Assembly: GCA_913056455.1 (NCBI GenBank)
Contig: CAJXMJ010000001.1
Location: 806,001-870,000 of the forward strand
Direction of reading: 5' to 3'
Length of the DNA: 64,000 bases
Source of the DNA: an uncultured Fodinibius sp.
GTDB lineage: Bacteria; Bacteroidota; Rhodothermia; Balneolales; Balneolaceae
How positions within the stretch are numbered: position 1 is the stretch's first letter; each line of letters opens with the position of its first letter. Shown one piece after another: positions 36,057-40,367 of the stretch. A model generated the notes under the pieces. That model worked only from the letters and a program-made list of their open reading frames with translations, did not search any database and had not been told where the DNA came from. A program made the translations under genes and the position numbers.

Positions 36057-38765
36057 TTACTGGTTAATTTGATTTTCAATTTCTTTCATTTTCCTTCCAA
36101 ATTCCTCCCAGTTCCCGTCTTGAAGTGCTTCTTGGGCCTCATTCCACAGAGTTTGCAACTGTGAGTAATCTTGAGTGACATCGCTTGCCGGTTGTTGGGG
36201 TAGTGCCGTGGTGGTATCAATTTCTGCAGTCGCAACTCGTTCGTCTCGTTTGCCATAAAGTGCTTCAATGGATTGCCAAAGTGTTGGTTGCATGGCGATT
36301 TTTTCGCCGGTAGTAGCAATTACACGCTGTAACTGGGGAATGTCAACTCCCTCAGCAATGAGAAAGACCGGCTCTACGTAGATGAAGGAGTCCTCGATTG
36401 GGATGACCATCAGGTTGCCACGAATAACACGCGAACCGCGCTGATCCCAAAGTGCCAGCTGACGTGAGATTTCGGTATCTTGATCGATTCGAGCCTCAAT
36501 TTGGGCCGGCCCCAGAATAAGTCGGTCTTTAGGTAGTTGATAGACCGATACTTCTCCATAATTGGGGTAATCTGAATTTGCAGCCATCCATCCGATCATA
36601 TTGTCACGGTTGTTTGGTGTAAGCGGACTAATCAATAAATACTGCAGTTCTTTCTGGTCCGGTAGTTTTGTCAATACATAATAGGGTTCCATTTTTATGG
36701 ATTGACCACCATACTTTTCATTTGGACGGGTCCACAGGTCTTCATTGTTGTAGAATACCTGGGGATCAGTCATATGATACTTATTGTACTTATCCAATTG
36801 AACCTTAAAGTAATAGATGGGATATCGAACATGCTGTTTTAGAGTGCCCGGCATATTGTCAACGGGTTGAAACATGTTGGGGAAAATATCCTCATACATA
36901 TTTAGAATGGGATCATTTTTGTCTGAGACATAAAAATCTACCGATCCATTATAGGCATCGACAACAACTTTGACCGAATTCCGGATATAATTAAATGAGT
37001 TGTTAAAAGGTTCGGAATAGGGGAAGTTGGCCGAGGTCGTATAAGCGTCCTGTATCCAGTATAACTTTCCTTCATCCAAAACCATATAGGGATCATCTTC
37101 CATCCGCAGAAAAGGGGCTATTTTTTTGACTCGATCTTGAATACGTTTCCAGAAAATAATTTTGCTGTCATCCTTGATATAATCAGTCAACAGAATGTTG
37201 ATATCCCCGAAGTTCCACGCAAAAAGTAAGCGCGAAAAGATATTGCCAATAGGTACACCGCTGCTTCCTTGATAATTGGTATAGACGTTTTGGTCTCCCT
37301 GGGGATAGTCGAGCTCCCGTATGTTAGTATTAACAATCTTATAATCGTCGTTGTGTTCCCCGTAATAAATGGCCGGTTGATCAACCTCCAGCCCTATATC
37401 ACTTACCGGTGGAATATCTTTGATGGCAAGACGGGGATCCCCCTGGGAACCCTCTTGTGCAACAGGACTCATGACCAAACCATATCCATGTGTGTATTGC
37501 AACCGTCGGTTCACCCAGGTGTCTGATCCTTCAGGCATCTCCTCGGAAAGCTCACGTGCGGCTACCATCATTTGTAGGTATCCTTCATTAGTGTGGTAGC
37601 GATCGACATCTACATTGTAAAACTGATAATAAAGCCTAATTTCCTGTAGCTGGCGATAGGTTTGTATTAAGAGCCGTGGATCCCATAGCCGAATGTTTTC
37701 AATAGTCTCTTCATTACGTTCGATTGTGGGCCAGCCCATCTCCTCAGATGGTTGTGCGCTGTAAGGTTGTGTTTCCATTTTATCGAGCGCGTAGGCCTTT
37801 CGGGTTTGCTCGATACTGTGTTCGATATAGGGTTCTTCAAGTTGCAGCTCACTGGGTTGTACTACAAATTGCTGCACCATACCCGGTAATAATCCATTAC
37901 CTATTACGCCAATCAAAATGGTGGCGGCACCGGCGTAGATAATCCATTTAAAGCGATCCTTATAAAGCTGAAAGAATGAGAATAATCCCATCAGGAAGGT
38001 GAGTCCGCAGAGCAGCCAAATAACCGGCAATTGCACATTGATATCCACATAGCTGGCACCAAATACTGCTCCCGTAGAATTATAGAGCAGGTTATACCGC
38101 TCAAGATAATATCCCCACGAAAGCAACAGAAACCAGATGCCTATATTAATAAAAATATGCTTTTTGACATCTTTGCTTGCGCTCAAATTACGTATGGATT
38201 GGAGGGAAAGGGCACCCGAATAAATATATAGGATGATTATTCCCACCGTGATAAAAAAGACCAGTGAGGTTAAGCTGTTTTGGATAAGCTCTAAAAAAGG
38301 CAGGCGGAATATATAAAAGCCAATATCATGACCAAAAATAGGGTCAACCTGACCAAACATCTCACTCCAATGAAATCGAAAATAGGTGTCCCACCGCATA
38401 AAAAATGCCAAGGAAAAGAAAACACTTATTGCTGCTCCGGCACCGTAAAAAACAGTTTTTATTTTTTTAGAATCTATCTCATGAAGTTTAAGCTGAGCCA
38501 ACGGTGATTGCCCAAAATGCATCGTGCTAAACTTCTTGCCCAGCTTACCCATATTCGGAAGTACGTAAAGCATGGCCAATACCAGCGATGAGATAAGCAG
38601 GAGGGCCTGTGTAATTTTGATGGTCCAAAACACCTGGTCATACCCCAGATTATCCAACCACATCCATTCTATAATCCAATCCGAAAATACCCCGATCAGT
38701 ACTACTACAAGTAGAATGGGAATAAGAAATCGAAATAATTTTGATGATCCTATCGACTTATCCAT
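36057..38765 (-). CDS. UPF0182 family membrane protein
   Basis: A 902-residue protein. The first third has about seven membrane helices (LIPILLVVVLIGVFSDWIIE, ALLLISSLVLAMLYVLP, VFFSLAFFMRW, LTSLVFFITVGIIILYIYSG and later ones). The rest is a large extracytoplasmic domain with the family patterns WPTIERNEETIENIRLWDPR, YTHGYGLVMSPV, IYYGEHNDDYKIVNT and FPYSEPFNNSFNYIRNSVKV. It ends in a Gln/Glu-rich coiled tail. UPF0182 is widespread in Actinobacteria, Cyanobacteria and others and has no established function. It stands alone between the kinase and the SatD pair. Confidence 0.9.
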   Translation of the reverse strand: MDKSIGSSKLFRFLIPILLVVVLIGVFSDWIIEWMWLDNLGYDQVFWTIKITQALLLISSLVLAMLYVLPNMGKLGKKFSTMHFGQSPLAQLKLHEIDSKKIKTVFYGAGAAISVFFSLAFFMRWDTYFRFHWSEMFGQVDPIFGHDIGFYIFRLPFLELIQNSLTSLVFFITVGIIILYIYSGALSLQSIRNLSASKDVKKHIFINIGIWFLLLSWGYYLERYNLLYNSTGAVFGASYVDINVQLPVIWLLCGLTFLMGLFSFFQLYKDRFKWIIYAGAATILIGVIGNGLLPGMVQQFVVQPSELQLEEPYIEHSIEQTRKAYALDKMETQPYSAQPSEEMGWPTIERNEETIENIRLWDPRLLIQTYRQLQEIRLYYQFYNVDVDRYHTNEGYLQMMVAARELSEEMPEGSDTWVNRRLQYTHGYGLVMSPVAQEGSQGDPRLAIKDIPPVSDIGLEVDQPAIYYGEHNDDYKIVNTNIRELDYPQGDQNVYTNYQGSSGVPIGNIFSRLLFAWNFGDINILLTDYIKDDSKIIFWKRIQDRVKKIAPFLRMEDDPYMVLDEGKLYWIQDAYTTSANFPYSEPFNNSFNYIRNSVKVVVDAYNGSVDFYVSDKNDPILNMYEDIFPNMFQPVDNMPGTLKQHVRYPIYYFKVQLDKYNKYHMTDPQVFYNNEDLWTRPNEKYGGQSIKMEPYYVLTKLPDQKELQYLLISPLTPNNRDNMIGWMAANSDYPNYGEVSVYQLPKDRLILGPAQIEARIDQDTEISRQLALWDQRGSRVIRGNLMVIPIEDSFIYVEPVFLIAEGVDIPQLQRVIATTGEKIAMQPTLWQSIEALYGKRDERVATAEIDTTTALPQQPASDVTQDYSQLQTLWNEAQEALQDGNWEEFGRKMKEIENQINQ

Positions 38766-38985
38766 GTTATATCTGTTAATCTCTGGTTTGATTTGCCACC
38801 GGTTATTTTAGCAGACATAAAATAGCAACCATTTTGAACAAATAAGAATTTCGTTGATAATTAAAATGATCGGCCCTCCATCTCTTTTAACCAAAGCGGG
38901 CTAAAATACCTTTATTAAACTGATATGGTTAAATTTTGATATTTTAAACCTTTATGGTTATATATAGAGAAAAGAGGAGGATTAT

Positions 38986-39627
38986 ATGGAAAAGCTACTG
39001 GTGTTAATTGGTGATATTGAAGATTCCCAATCAGTTGGAAGTAGGGATAGGGAGAGCTTGCAAGAGGTACTATCGGATGAGTTGCAAATGCTCAATACAG
39101 AATACGATAGAGGTATTATATCTCCTTATACTATTACACTCGGGGATGAATTTCAGGCAGTTTTTGACCGGGCGGATAACATTTTTGTGCAGATGTTAAA
39201 AGTAATGTCTGCTATCCACCCGATAGGTATACGGTTTTCATTGGCTGTGGGGCACATAGATACGTCTATCAATACTGAGCAAGCTATTGGGATGGATGGA
39301 CCGGCGTTCCACCGAGCTCGACGCGGAGTAGAGCTACTCAAAGAAAATGAGTTTATGTTTAATATTGGGTTTGAGGATGCTTCACCGGAGCTGAAAGTTA
39401 TAAATAATAGCTTACAGCTTTTGTCAGGACGAATAAGAGGGTGGAACAAGAGGCGTTTAATTATTCTCCACATGATGAAGGAAGGATACGACTATAAGGA
39501 AATATCAGAGGCCCTTGAAATATCAAAACCGGCTTTTTATAAAAATAAAGAGGCTGGTATGCTGGATGTTGTGGGTGAATTAAGTGATAATATTACGGAT
39601 GTAATTAATCAAAAGTTAAAAAAATGA
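38986..39627 (+). CDS. SatD family protein, possible cyclase-fold sensor with HTH tail
   Basis: A 213-residue protein. The N-terminal domain has VLIGDIEDSQ (Asp10), YTITLGDEFQAVF (Asp54), IRFSLAVGHIDT and AIGMDGPAFHRARRGVELL (101-118). This is the SatD-family signature. The order and spacing also recall class III nucleotidyl cyclases ('DI..FT', 'GD..MA.F', 'R.GI..G.V..G', 'G..VN.AAR'), but this second comparison is my inference. The C-terminus (about 158-200; LIILHMMKEGYDYKEISEAL, then EISKPAFYKNKEAG) is a helix-turn-helix. A very good AGGAGG lies 5 bases before the ATG. Its TGA overlaps the next gene by ATGA. It may be a soluble sensor or regulator acting with the membrane protein. Confidence 0.82.
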   Translation: MEKLLVLIGDIEDSQSVGSRDRESLQEVLSDELQMLNTEYDRGIISPYTITLGDEFQAVFDRADNIFVQMLKVMSAIHPIGIRFSLAVGHIDTSINTEQAIGMDGPAFHRARRGVELLKENEFMFNIGFEDASPELKVINNSLQLLSGRIRGWNKRRLIILHMMKEGYDYKEISEALEISKPAFYKNKEAGMLDVVGELSDNITDVINQKLKK

Positions 39628-40367
39628 ACTACGCTATATTTTTAGGTATTCTTAATTTGATCCTGCTGTCCAGGCTTTGTCTAATTTCCCGAGACGAGGG
39701 AGTTAATCAATCGGATATGTGGGGGGTGACGATTGTCCCGCTTCTGAGTTTGCCGTTTTTAGCGATTAGCATGAGCTGGATATTACTCGCTTTCTATTTG
39801 GTTAGCTACCCGGTATTGATGTGGATGCTTGAGAAGCAGAAAACAAGGTTAAACCGGAACCGAATATTGCTGCTGCTGTTGCATACAATTATAGTAGCTT
39901 TGTTATGCAGTCCCATTTTTGAACTATCAACGAGTGAATTTGCAACGAATCTTTTAGCTGGGATTGACAGGGTGTTTCTACCCGGTGTAATTATAACGGG
40001 TGGGGTAGTAAGTGTTATTCATCTATTTGTCTTTGGTTTACTGATGGTACTTAATGAAGCCAATATCATATTGCGTTATATACTAAAGTTGGTGGGATTA
40101 AAAACATTAGGTAAAACAAAAGAAGTTGATCAGCAGGAATACAATACGGGACGAATCATAGGATTACTCGAACGTATTTTTGTATTTCTATTTGTGATCT
40201 TAAATCAATTTGCGGCAATAGGTTTTGTTTTAGCTGCCAAAGGTGTTACACGATTTAAAGATTTTGAAAGTCGTACCTTTGCTGAATATGTATTGATTGG
40301 AACACTGCTTTCGGCTCTTTTGGCTATGGGAGTTGCCTTTCTGGTAAAAACAGTTCTGCATTTGTAA
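39624..40367 (+). CDS. Integral membrane protein coupled to SatD
   Basis: A 247-residue protein with about six to seven hydrophobic helices (YAIFLGILNLILLSRL, WGVTIVPLLSLPFLAISMSW, ILLAFYLVSYPVLMW, ILLLLLHTIIVALLC, VIHLFVFGLLMVL). The C-terminal part (GRIIGLLERIFVFLFVILNQ, FAAIGFVLAAKGVTRF, FAEYVLIGTLLSALLAM) matches the C-terminal region of DUF3307 proteins, which commonly sit beside satD. The N-terminal half is not the typical DUF3307 sequence. It starts by ATGA overlap with satD, so the two products are almost certainly made together. Function unknown. Confidence 0.75.
   Translation: MNYAIFLGILNLILLSRLCLISRDEGVNQSDMWGVTIVPLLSLPFLAISMSWILLAFYLVSYPVLMWMLEKQKTRLNRNRILLLLLHTIIVALLCSPIFELSTSEFATNLLAGIDRVFLPGVIITGGVVSVIHLFVFGLLMVLNEANIILRYILKLVGLKTLGKTKEVDQQEYNTGRIIGLLERIFVFLFVILNQFAAIGFVLAAKGVTRFKDFESRTFAEYVLIGTLLSALLAMGVAFLVKTVLHL

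Follow-up and report, generated by a model that had tools for sequence, protein, structure and literature searches.

Tandem palindromes spaced about 28-29 bp apart precede the satD operons of all three classes of the SatD family, a previously undescribed feature of these operons. We consider it reasonably probable that SatD is a one-component self-regulator, consisting of a palm domain and a helix-turn-helix (HTH) tail, which acts on its own operator array and sets the amount of the membrane protein encoded by the next gene. The computed results from which this reading starts are a predicted fold, a conserved metal-type site, a near-constant membrane partner and palindrome arrays tied to satD.

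In the window (the whole stretch of 64,000 nucleotides that was analysed), satD occupies positions 38986..39627 of the forward strand and encodes a protein of 213 aa, with the palm at residues ~1-150, the C-terminal HTH at ~153-190 and a final helix. The partner gene (39624..40367, same strand, 247 aa) overlaps satD through ATGA, that is, the two genes are translationally coupled; direct reading of the sequence located these coordinates, the coupling and the motifs quoted in an earlier note on this DNA at the places claimed there. Of 69 non-redundant loci counted, 29 show this 4-base overlap between the stop of satD and the start of the partner gene. The window SatD belongs to the SatD family (PF16264; E 1.9e-30, residues 5-191, 106.5 bits vs a gathering score of 29) and has a single match in the 3.28 Mb genome of the window, and for the window partner, no Pfam or NCBIfam family scored above the cut-off. 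A collection scan yielded 520 candidate stretches, of which 467 were confirmed as SatD relatives; among the best 80 of the 467, which were retained, the nearest named relatives of the window SatD come from Aliifodinibius and Fodinibius, with at most 83% identity. PF16264 is present in 55 of the 97 genomes sampled from the order and in 66 of the 296 sampled from the phylum. The name SatD derives from the sat operon of S. mutans. In this name, sat stands for secretion and acid tolerance, according to the part of PMC10326533 that cites the S. mutans work. In a search of a CC-licensed library, no paper was found in which SatD is given the fold of a cyclase or a site on DNA.

The membrane gene is found downstream of satD, on the same strand and ending within 1.6 kb, in 117 of the 121 uncut representatives (4 of the 125 SatD clusters, cut by a contig end, were left out of this count), so that the co-occurrence of the two genes, which the earlier note had proposed to check, is near-constant. 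These 117 loci comprise three partner classes: the class A SatDs, including that of the window, have a long partner of 211-271 residues (alignment A4; 83 loci), those of class B a partner of ~106-115 residues, which is little more than the core described below (11 loci), and those of class C a DUF3307 protein (22 loci); in the one remaining locus, on a haloarchaeal plasmid, a class A SatD is accompanied by a partner of the DUF3307 type. The reverse search gave the same association: the DUF3307 profile produced 32 matches in 97 genomes, and among the best 12 of the 32, SatD of class C was encoded just upstream in all 12. Two of these 12 cases are in genomes, G053 and G087 (loci L168 and L170), where the SatD beside the DUF3307 protein was missed by the Pfam SatD model and found with the class C profile. 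For the four partner-less loci (L060, L088, L095 and L102), no partner was detected elsewhere in the genome at E <= 0.001, in a search for which the window genome (G000) and the genome of L033 served as positive controls.

The structure predicted for the window partner, with a pLDDT of 93.1, contains ten helices, nine of them of at least 12 residues, and a simple hydropathy count gives 8 hydrophobic segments. The description of this protein in the earlier note as a membrane protein of six to seven helices thus stands as to its membrane-like nature, and the number of helices is somewhat larger. Comparison of the partner model with the PDB gave no usable match, the lowest E being 1.2 in Foldseek and the highest Z 5.9 in VIA. 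The proposed kinship with DUF3307 was recovered for the C-terminal part, and not as a Pfam match: the window partner has no row for Pfam DUF3307 (PF11750) at E <= 1, and no PF11750 match was obtained in G000, but positions ~128-246 of the long-partner profile match the C-terminal ~110 residues of DUF3307-containing proteins (best E 2.7e-29, median 1.6e-26, n=14, E-values that refer to the small sets compared). Most of the region in common is not covered by the Pfam DUF3307 model. The short-partner profile reached, on the same small-set scale, about 1e-9 to 1e-10 at best against either of the other classes. To judge by these profiles, a C-terminal core is common to all three partner classes; in the window partner it comprises residues ~128-246, of which the short partners share a part. 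A jumbo-phage ORF resembles a DUF3307 protein, as reported in the relevant part of PMC8504454, which counts against a purely cellular family.

Clustering of the neighbours in 80 loci recovered the partner in 70 and the next cluster in only 8. In the window, the gene that adjoins satD in divergent orientation (36057-38765, reverse strand) encodes a membrane-like protein of 902 residues, which we take to be UPF0182-like; a gene resembling it, the likeness being judged by eye, recurs in 6 of the 80 loci. SatD is present in 8 plasmid records. On the Agrobacterium plasmid pAt (L178), satD and a gene for the partner core lie near genes annotated as antitoxin, nucleotidyltransferase-HEPN and HipA-domain protein. 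A defence or phage origin of the SatD pair was considered and rejected: neither SatD nor the partner has a PADLOC match, no SatD relatives were found in 50,697 phage records and none were confirmed in viral contigs, and the PHROGs matches were weak, those of SatD falling nearly all within the HTH part.

Upstream of satD in the window, the forward strand contains two palindromic operator-like copies, AACTGATATGGTT (38918..38930) and, 29 bp after it, AACCTTTATGGTT (38947..38959). A degenerate third copy (38889..38901, forward strand), identified by eye and unscored, sits 29 bp before the 38918 copy, with an intact left half, AACC, and two mismatches in the right half. The palindrome of class A can be written as AACY-N5-RGTT and occurs in up to five copies upstream of satD. 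Among the 77 non-redundant class A loci (near-identical loci were dropped), 66 have at least one site and 49 at least two within 200 bp upstream; in the other 11, no strict site was found within this distance. Altogether there are 147 sites in these 77 loci, vs a mean of 1.0 (maximum 6) in 200 shuffles, and the site density is 9.5 per kb upstream of satD vs 0.05 elsewhere in the same loci. Successive sites are 27-29 bp apart in 73 of 81 cases (28 bp in 30, 29 bp in 42 and 27 bp in 1); six of the other eight spacings are 55-58 bp, about double, and the last two are 48 and 77 bp.

The motif was first noticed in the window's own group of 15 loci. When this group is left out, 52 of the remaining 62 loci have a site and 35 have at least two, with 108 sites vs 0.83 (maximum 4) in shuffles, and 50 of 56 spacings fall at 27-29 bp. 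In 58 family genomes, a scan for the tandem pattern that was blind to satD matched 18 places, spread over 17 of the genomes. Of these places, 13 immediately precede satD, 2 are at contig ends and 3 lie elsewhere (in G037, in G044 and a second one in G080); a reversed control pattern had matches in 6 of the 58 genomes. The same scan of 145 genomes from another order, that of G351, matched 7, 4 of them at satD. Because the reversed control matched 18 of these genomes (counted by eye), more than the 7 of the real pattern, it is the place of the matches in this set, and not their number, that constitutes evidence. Single AACY-N5-RGTT sites show no excess over chance in the window (6 vs 4.25 expected); the signal is carried by the tandem arrangement together with the place. 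Of the 4 loci that lack a partner, 3 have sites, and 2 of these have at least two, so that the partner may be dispensable for regulation.

In one genome, G080, a second satD-type tandem pair (L197:3033-3074, corresponding to G080:C2:800632-800673) lies 53 bases before a gene for a membrane-like protein of 202 residues. This protein has an HEAGH motif and is presumably M50-like, and the site pair is possibly a second target in that genome. In Fodinibius halophilus (L035), the open reading frame of the partner is reduced to 122 residues (L035:6938-7303) and no site is found within 250 bp upstream of satD, so that this satD copy looks to be decaying. An RNA structure at the arrays was considered and rejected: the two half-sites vary without significant association (C/G 85, T/G 31, C/A 18, T/A 13; Fisher p 0.12), and no Rfam family reaches the cut-off, the one row obtained being far below it, on the other strand and within the partner gene.

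Strict AACY-N5-RGTT sites are absent from the 28 class B and C loci searched for them. In their stead, class B operons are preceded by tandem palindromes of the TTTCA/TGAAA or TGCA types, and class C operons by tandem TATCG/CGATA, ATTAC/GTAAT, ATAGT/ACTAT, TATAG/CTATA and other palindromes. When exact 5-base arms were demanded, such arrays were detected in 34 of 77 loci of class A, 1 of 11 of class B and 14 of 22 of class C, at distances of 27-29 bp only, over a background of 0.02-0.05 per set in resamples; the 11 class B and 22 class C loci each belong to a different cluster at 90% identity. A looser search, which tolerated one mismatch and extended over distances of 18-45 bp, gave 10 of 11 for class B and 18 of 22 for class C, vs means of ~1.1 and ~1.2 (maximum 3), in a test that was devised after the sequences had been viewed, with controls given equal looseness; the distances were 28-29 bp in 11 of 11 cases in class B and 19 of 21 in class C. 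That the pitch is shared and the sequences differ suggests a common binding protein whose geometry sets the spacing.

SatD, the HTH of which differs among classes A, B and C, would be the obvious candidate for this binding protein. The HTH tail described in the earlier note is present in the AlphaFold2 model as predicted helices at residues 155-165, 170-177 and 181-190, with weak profile matches (Pfam best E 0.0015, below the cut-off; PDB profiles best E 0.012). The control of transcription suggested there gains support from the tandem operator-like sites in front of satD, to which, we infer, SatD binds.

The placement of the sites bears on the direction of this control. A possible promoter, TTGATA-N17-TATATA (38936..38964, forward strand; 9 of 12 matches), is weak and is not listed by a stricter promoter scan; its spacer contains the second operator-like copy, all but the last base. 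In 63 loci, a site occurs together with a promoter-like pair; in 35 of them (a fraction of 0.56), the -35/-10 spacer harbours a site, vs a control mean of 0.30 and a maximum of 0.46 in 200 controls. In 17 of 66 loci, the last site begins 16-19 bases upstream of the start codon. Repression would be the simplest reading of these positions.

The AlphaFold2 model of the window SatD, built from an alignment of 80 rows (A3), has a mean pLDDT of 96.5 and a pTM of 0.92. The palm is modelled with strands at residues 4-11, 44-50, 55-60, 82-89 and 125-128 and helices at 19-39, 66-77, 106-121 and 134-150, followed by three helices arranged as an HTH and by the last helix. Foldseek comparison of this model with the PDB gave 1186 matches at E <= 10, 50 of them at E <= 0.001; class III cyclases head the list (5mbg, E 1e-5), and besides cyclases, the best 50 of the 1186 comprise GGDEF domains, a GTP cyclohydrolase III and a Csm complex. 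In the VIA comparison, GTP cyclohydrolase III (2qv6) ranked best (Z 12.5, 2.5 A over 114 residues), with one half of its 252-residue chain aligned and the SatD HTH outside the aligned part; other matches include guanylate cyclase (Z 11.6, 3.7 A over 136), DgcZ (Z 11.2, 2.9 A over 123), Cmr2 (Z 11.2, 7.2 A over 167) and the mCpol OptS (Z 10.9, 2.5 A over 107). Because VIA ranks 2 to 50 span only Z 11.6-10.6, we place SatD in the palm superfamily rather than in one of its branches. The predicted palm thus matches those of class III cyclases, GGDEF domains, GTP cyclohydrolase III, Cas10 and mCpol, and the cyclase-like fold anticipated in the earlier note holds in the predicted structure, which is related to the cyclase and GGDEF palms.

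This kinship is not visible from sequence profiles alone. A sequence search of the PDB with single proteins and with the SatD profile retrieved no cyclase, the profile giving nine weak rows, mostly HTH proteins, and hhalign of SatD against 26 class III cyclase domains gave a probability of 1.6% with the 80-row alignment and 20% with a 30-row one. The DUF2652 cyclase-like proteins offer a precedent of an unannotated family recognised as cyclase-like (PMC4886424, in the portion that concerns them); DUF2652 is a different family from SatD, and the main text of that paper makes no mention of SatD.

The metal-type site itself is conserved almost without exception. Asp10 (codon 39013..39015, forward strand), the first metal-type aspartate, in strand 1, is Asp in 123 of 124 representatives, and Asp54 (39145..39147, forward strand), the second, in the LGDEFQ motif between strands 2 and 3, is Asp in 124 of 124, as the earlier note had required of SatD homologues; these representatives are the 125 SatD clusters at 90% identity minus the fragment L032. 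The sole gap at Asp10, in L088, stems from the chosen start codon, and another alignment shows Asp there. Ser14 and Gly53 are kept in 124 of 124. Because one of the patterns with which 80 loci were retrieved included LGDEF, the 47 representatives that came from other searches, and were not picked by the motif scan, were checked separately; D10, S14, G53 and D54 are present in 47 of 47. The two aspartates are in register with those of class III cyclases in the hhalign alignment, with a D10-D54 spacing of 36-46 residues in SatD vs 44 in all 26 cyclases compared. To go by this conservation, a putative metal-nucleotide site in SatD is well supported.

The claim that SatD also matches the base-binding pattern of class III nucleotidyl cyclases goes too far. 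SatD shares with these enzymes (PF00211) the fold and the two metal-type aspartates in register, but the profile probabilities are low (the 1.6% and 20% given above), the window SatD has no PF00211 match at E <= 1 in the Pfam search, and the position of the cyclase transition-state Asn is taken by His109 in the window (H in 60, Y in 29 and A in 2 of 91 class A proteins). Arg112, kept in 90 of 91 proteins of class A and 11 of 11 of class B, is Gly in 22 of 22 of class C, and hhalign aligns R113, not R112, with the cyclase transition-state Arg, so that this residue is either one position off or lost. Furthermore, SatD, unlike class III cyclases, has an HTH tail and no sensor domain in its chain. 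The window SatD has no PF00990 match at E <= 1 either, and its motif is LGDEF, not GG[DE]EF. Because the third active-site region varies between the classes, a class III catalytic mechanism is not well supported for SatD. The window genome itself has six PF00211 matches and no GGDEF match in a profile search; it would thus encode class III cyclases and, as far as this profile shows, no c-di-GMP synthase.

Under the reading that we favour, the palm of SatD would bind a nucleotide and metal ions via Asp10 and Asp54, and SatD dimers would bind, probably cooperatively, the palindromic operators that line up at intervals of 28-29 bp ahead of satD, an occupancy that probably represses the satD promoter. 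The state of the palm, with the nucleotide bound, converted or released, would set operator occupancy and hence the amount of the partner; contact with the co-made membrane protein perhaps also sets occupancy. A rival proposal is that the palm is a second-messenger enzyme making a (cyclic) nucleotide that gates the partner, with the HTH only setting the dose. The predicted fold match to mCpol, Cas10, GGDEF domains and cyclases, the strictly kept aspartates and the near-constant membrane partner would all suit such an enzyme, and Panoptes is a comparable pair, in which a palm protein (mCpol, OptS) controls a membrane effector, 2TM-beta, by means of a nucleotide (PMC12657230, in the part describing this system). 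SatD resembles mCpol in being a small palm protein whose gene adjoins that of a membrane protein; unlike Panoptes, the SatD pair has an HTH and a palindrome array, no PADLOC match and no conserved defence neighbours, the partner being the only widely conserved neighbour. The absence of SatD from the phage records, with none confirmed in viral contigs, and the class-dependent third active-site region (R112 replaced by G in class C) also weigh against the enzyme, which we regard as unlikely.

Somewhat doubtful, but less so, is a mechanism in which the palm is a dead or structural dimerization domain and SatD stays sequestered at the membrane by the partner, to be freed by a membrane signal, by analogy with LytTR regulatory systems (LRS). 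In these systems (HdrRM and BrsRM), a regulator and a membrane inhibitor are combined with repeats at their own promoter in a positive loop, as set out in the part of PMC6193735 drawn on here, and they are the nearest working analogue of the satD pair: the regulator gene comes first and the membrane protein gene second, the repeats lie at the own promoter, and the systems occur in many phyla. This likeness of a regulator and a multi-pass membrane protein in an operon with promoter repeats argues for sequestration, as do the short partners of ~106-115 aa, with little beyond the core. The regulator and the operator nevertheless differ, as presumably does the partner. SatD combines a palm with an HTH and gives no LytTR row in Pfam at E <= 1. 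The LRS operators, in the same part of PMC6193735, consist of direct repeats, most of them spaced by 12 bp, that lie some 10 bp ahead of the -35 element, whereas the satD sites are palindromes with a pitch of 28-29 bp, some near the satD start codon and many within the promoter as predicted. Moreover, practically every SatD examined retains the two metal-type aspartates, which would not be expected of a dead domain, and in 4 genomes with satD the partner gene was not found. The low scores of the SatD HTH would, for their part, fit a different regulator binding the arrays, or a role of the arrays as RNA hairpins. We find this very improbable, given that the palindrome sequence shifts with the SatD class while the pitch stays constant, that 13 of the 18 tandem-pattern places in family genomes are at satD, and that the half-sites, unlike a base-paired stem, show no significant association and no Rfam family reaches the cut-off.

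By its predicted fold, SatD would represent a new branch of the cyclase/GGDEF/Cas10 palm superfamily, fused to a likely DNA-binding tail. More tentatively, as a possibility that we hold with some reserve, SatD systems may constitute a distinct and widespread module of bacteria and some archaea, in which a nucleotide-gated palm-HTH protein, held in a fixed register of 28-29 bp on the operators of its own promoter, converts the state of a nucleotide (or messenger) into the dosage of a dedicated membrane effector, for which no fold match was found in the PDB; the pitch, and not the DNA sequence, would then be what evolution kept across the three classes. SatD and DUF3307, scarcely described families found in many phyla, would gain a joint, testable role, with the exact operator supplied as a starting point, and a pitch retained as the operators diverge in sequence would clearly exemplify selection on oligomer geometry.
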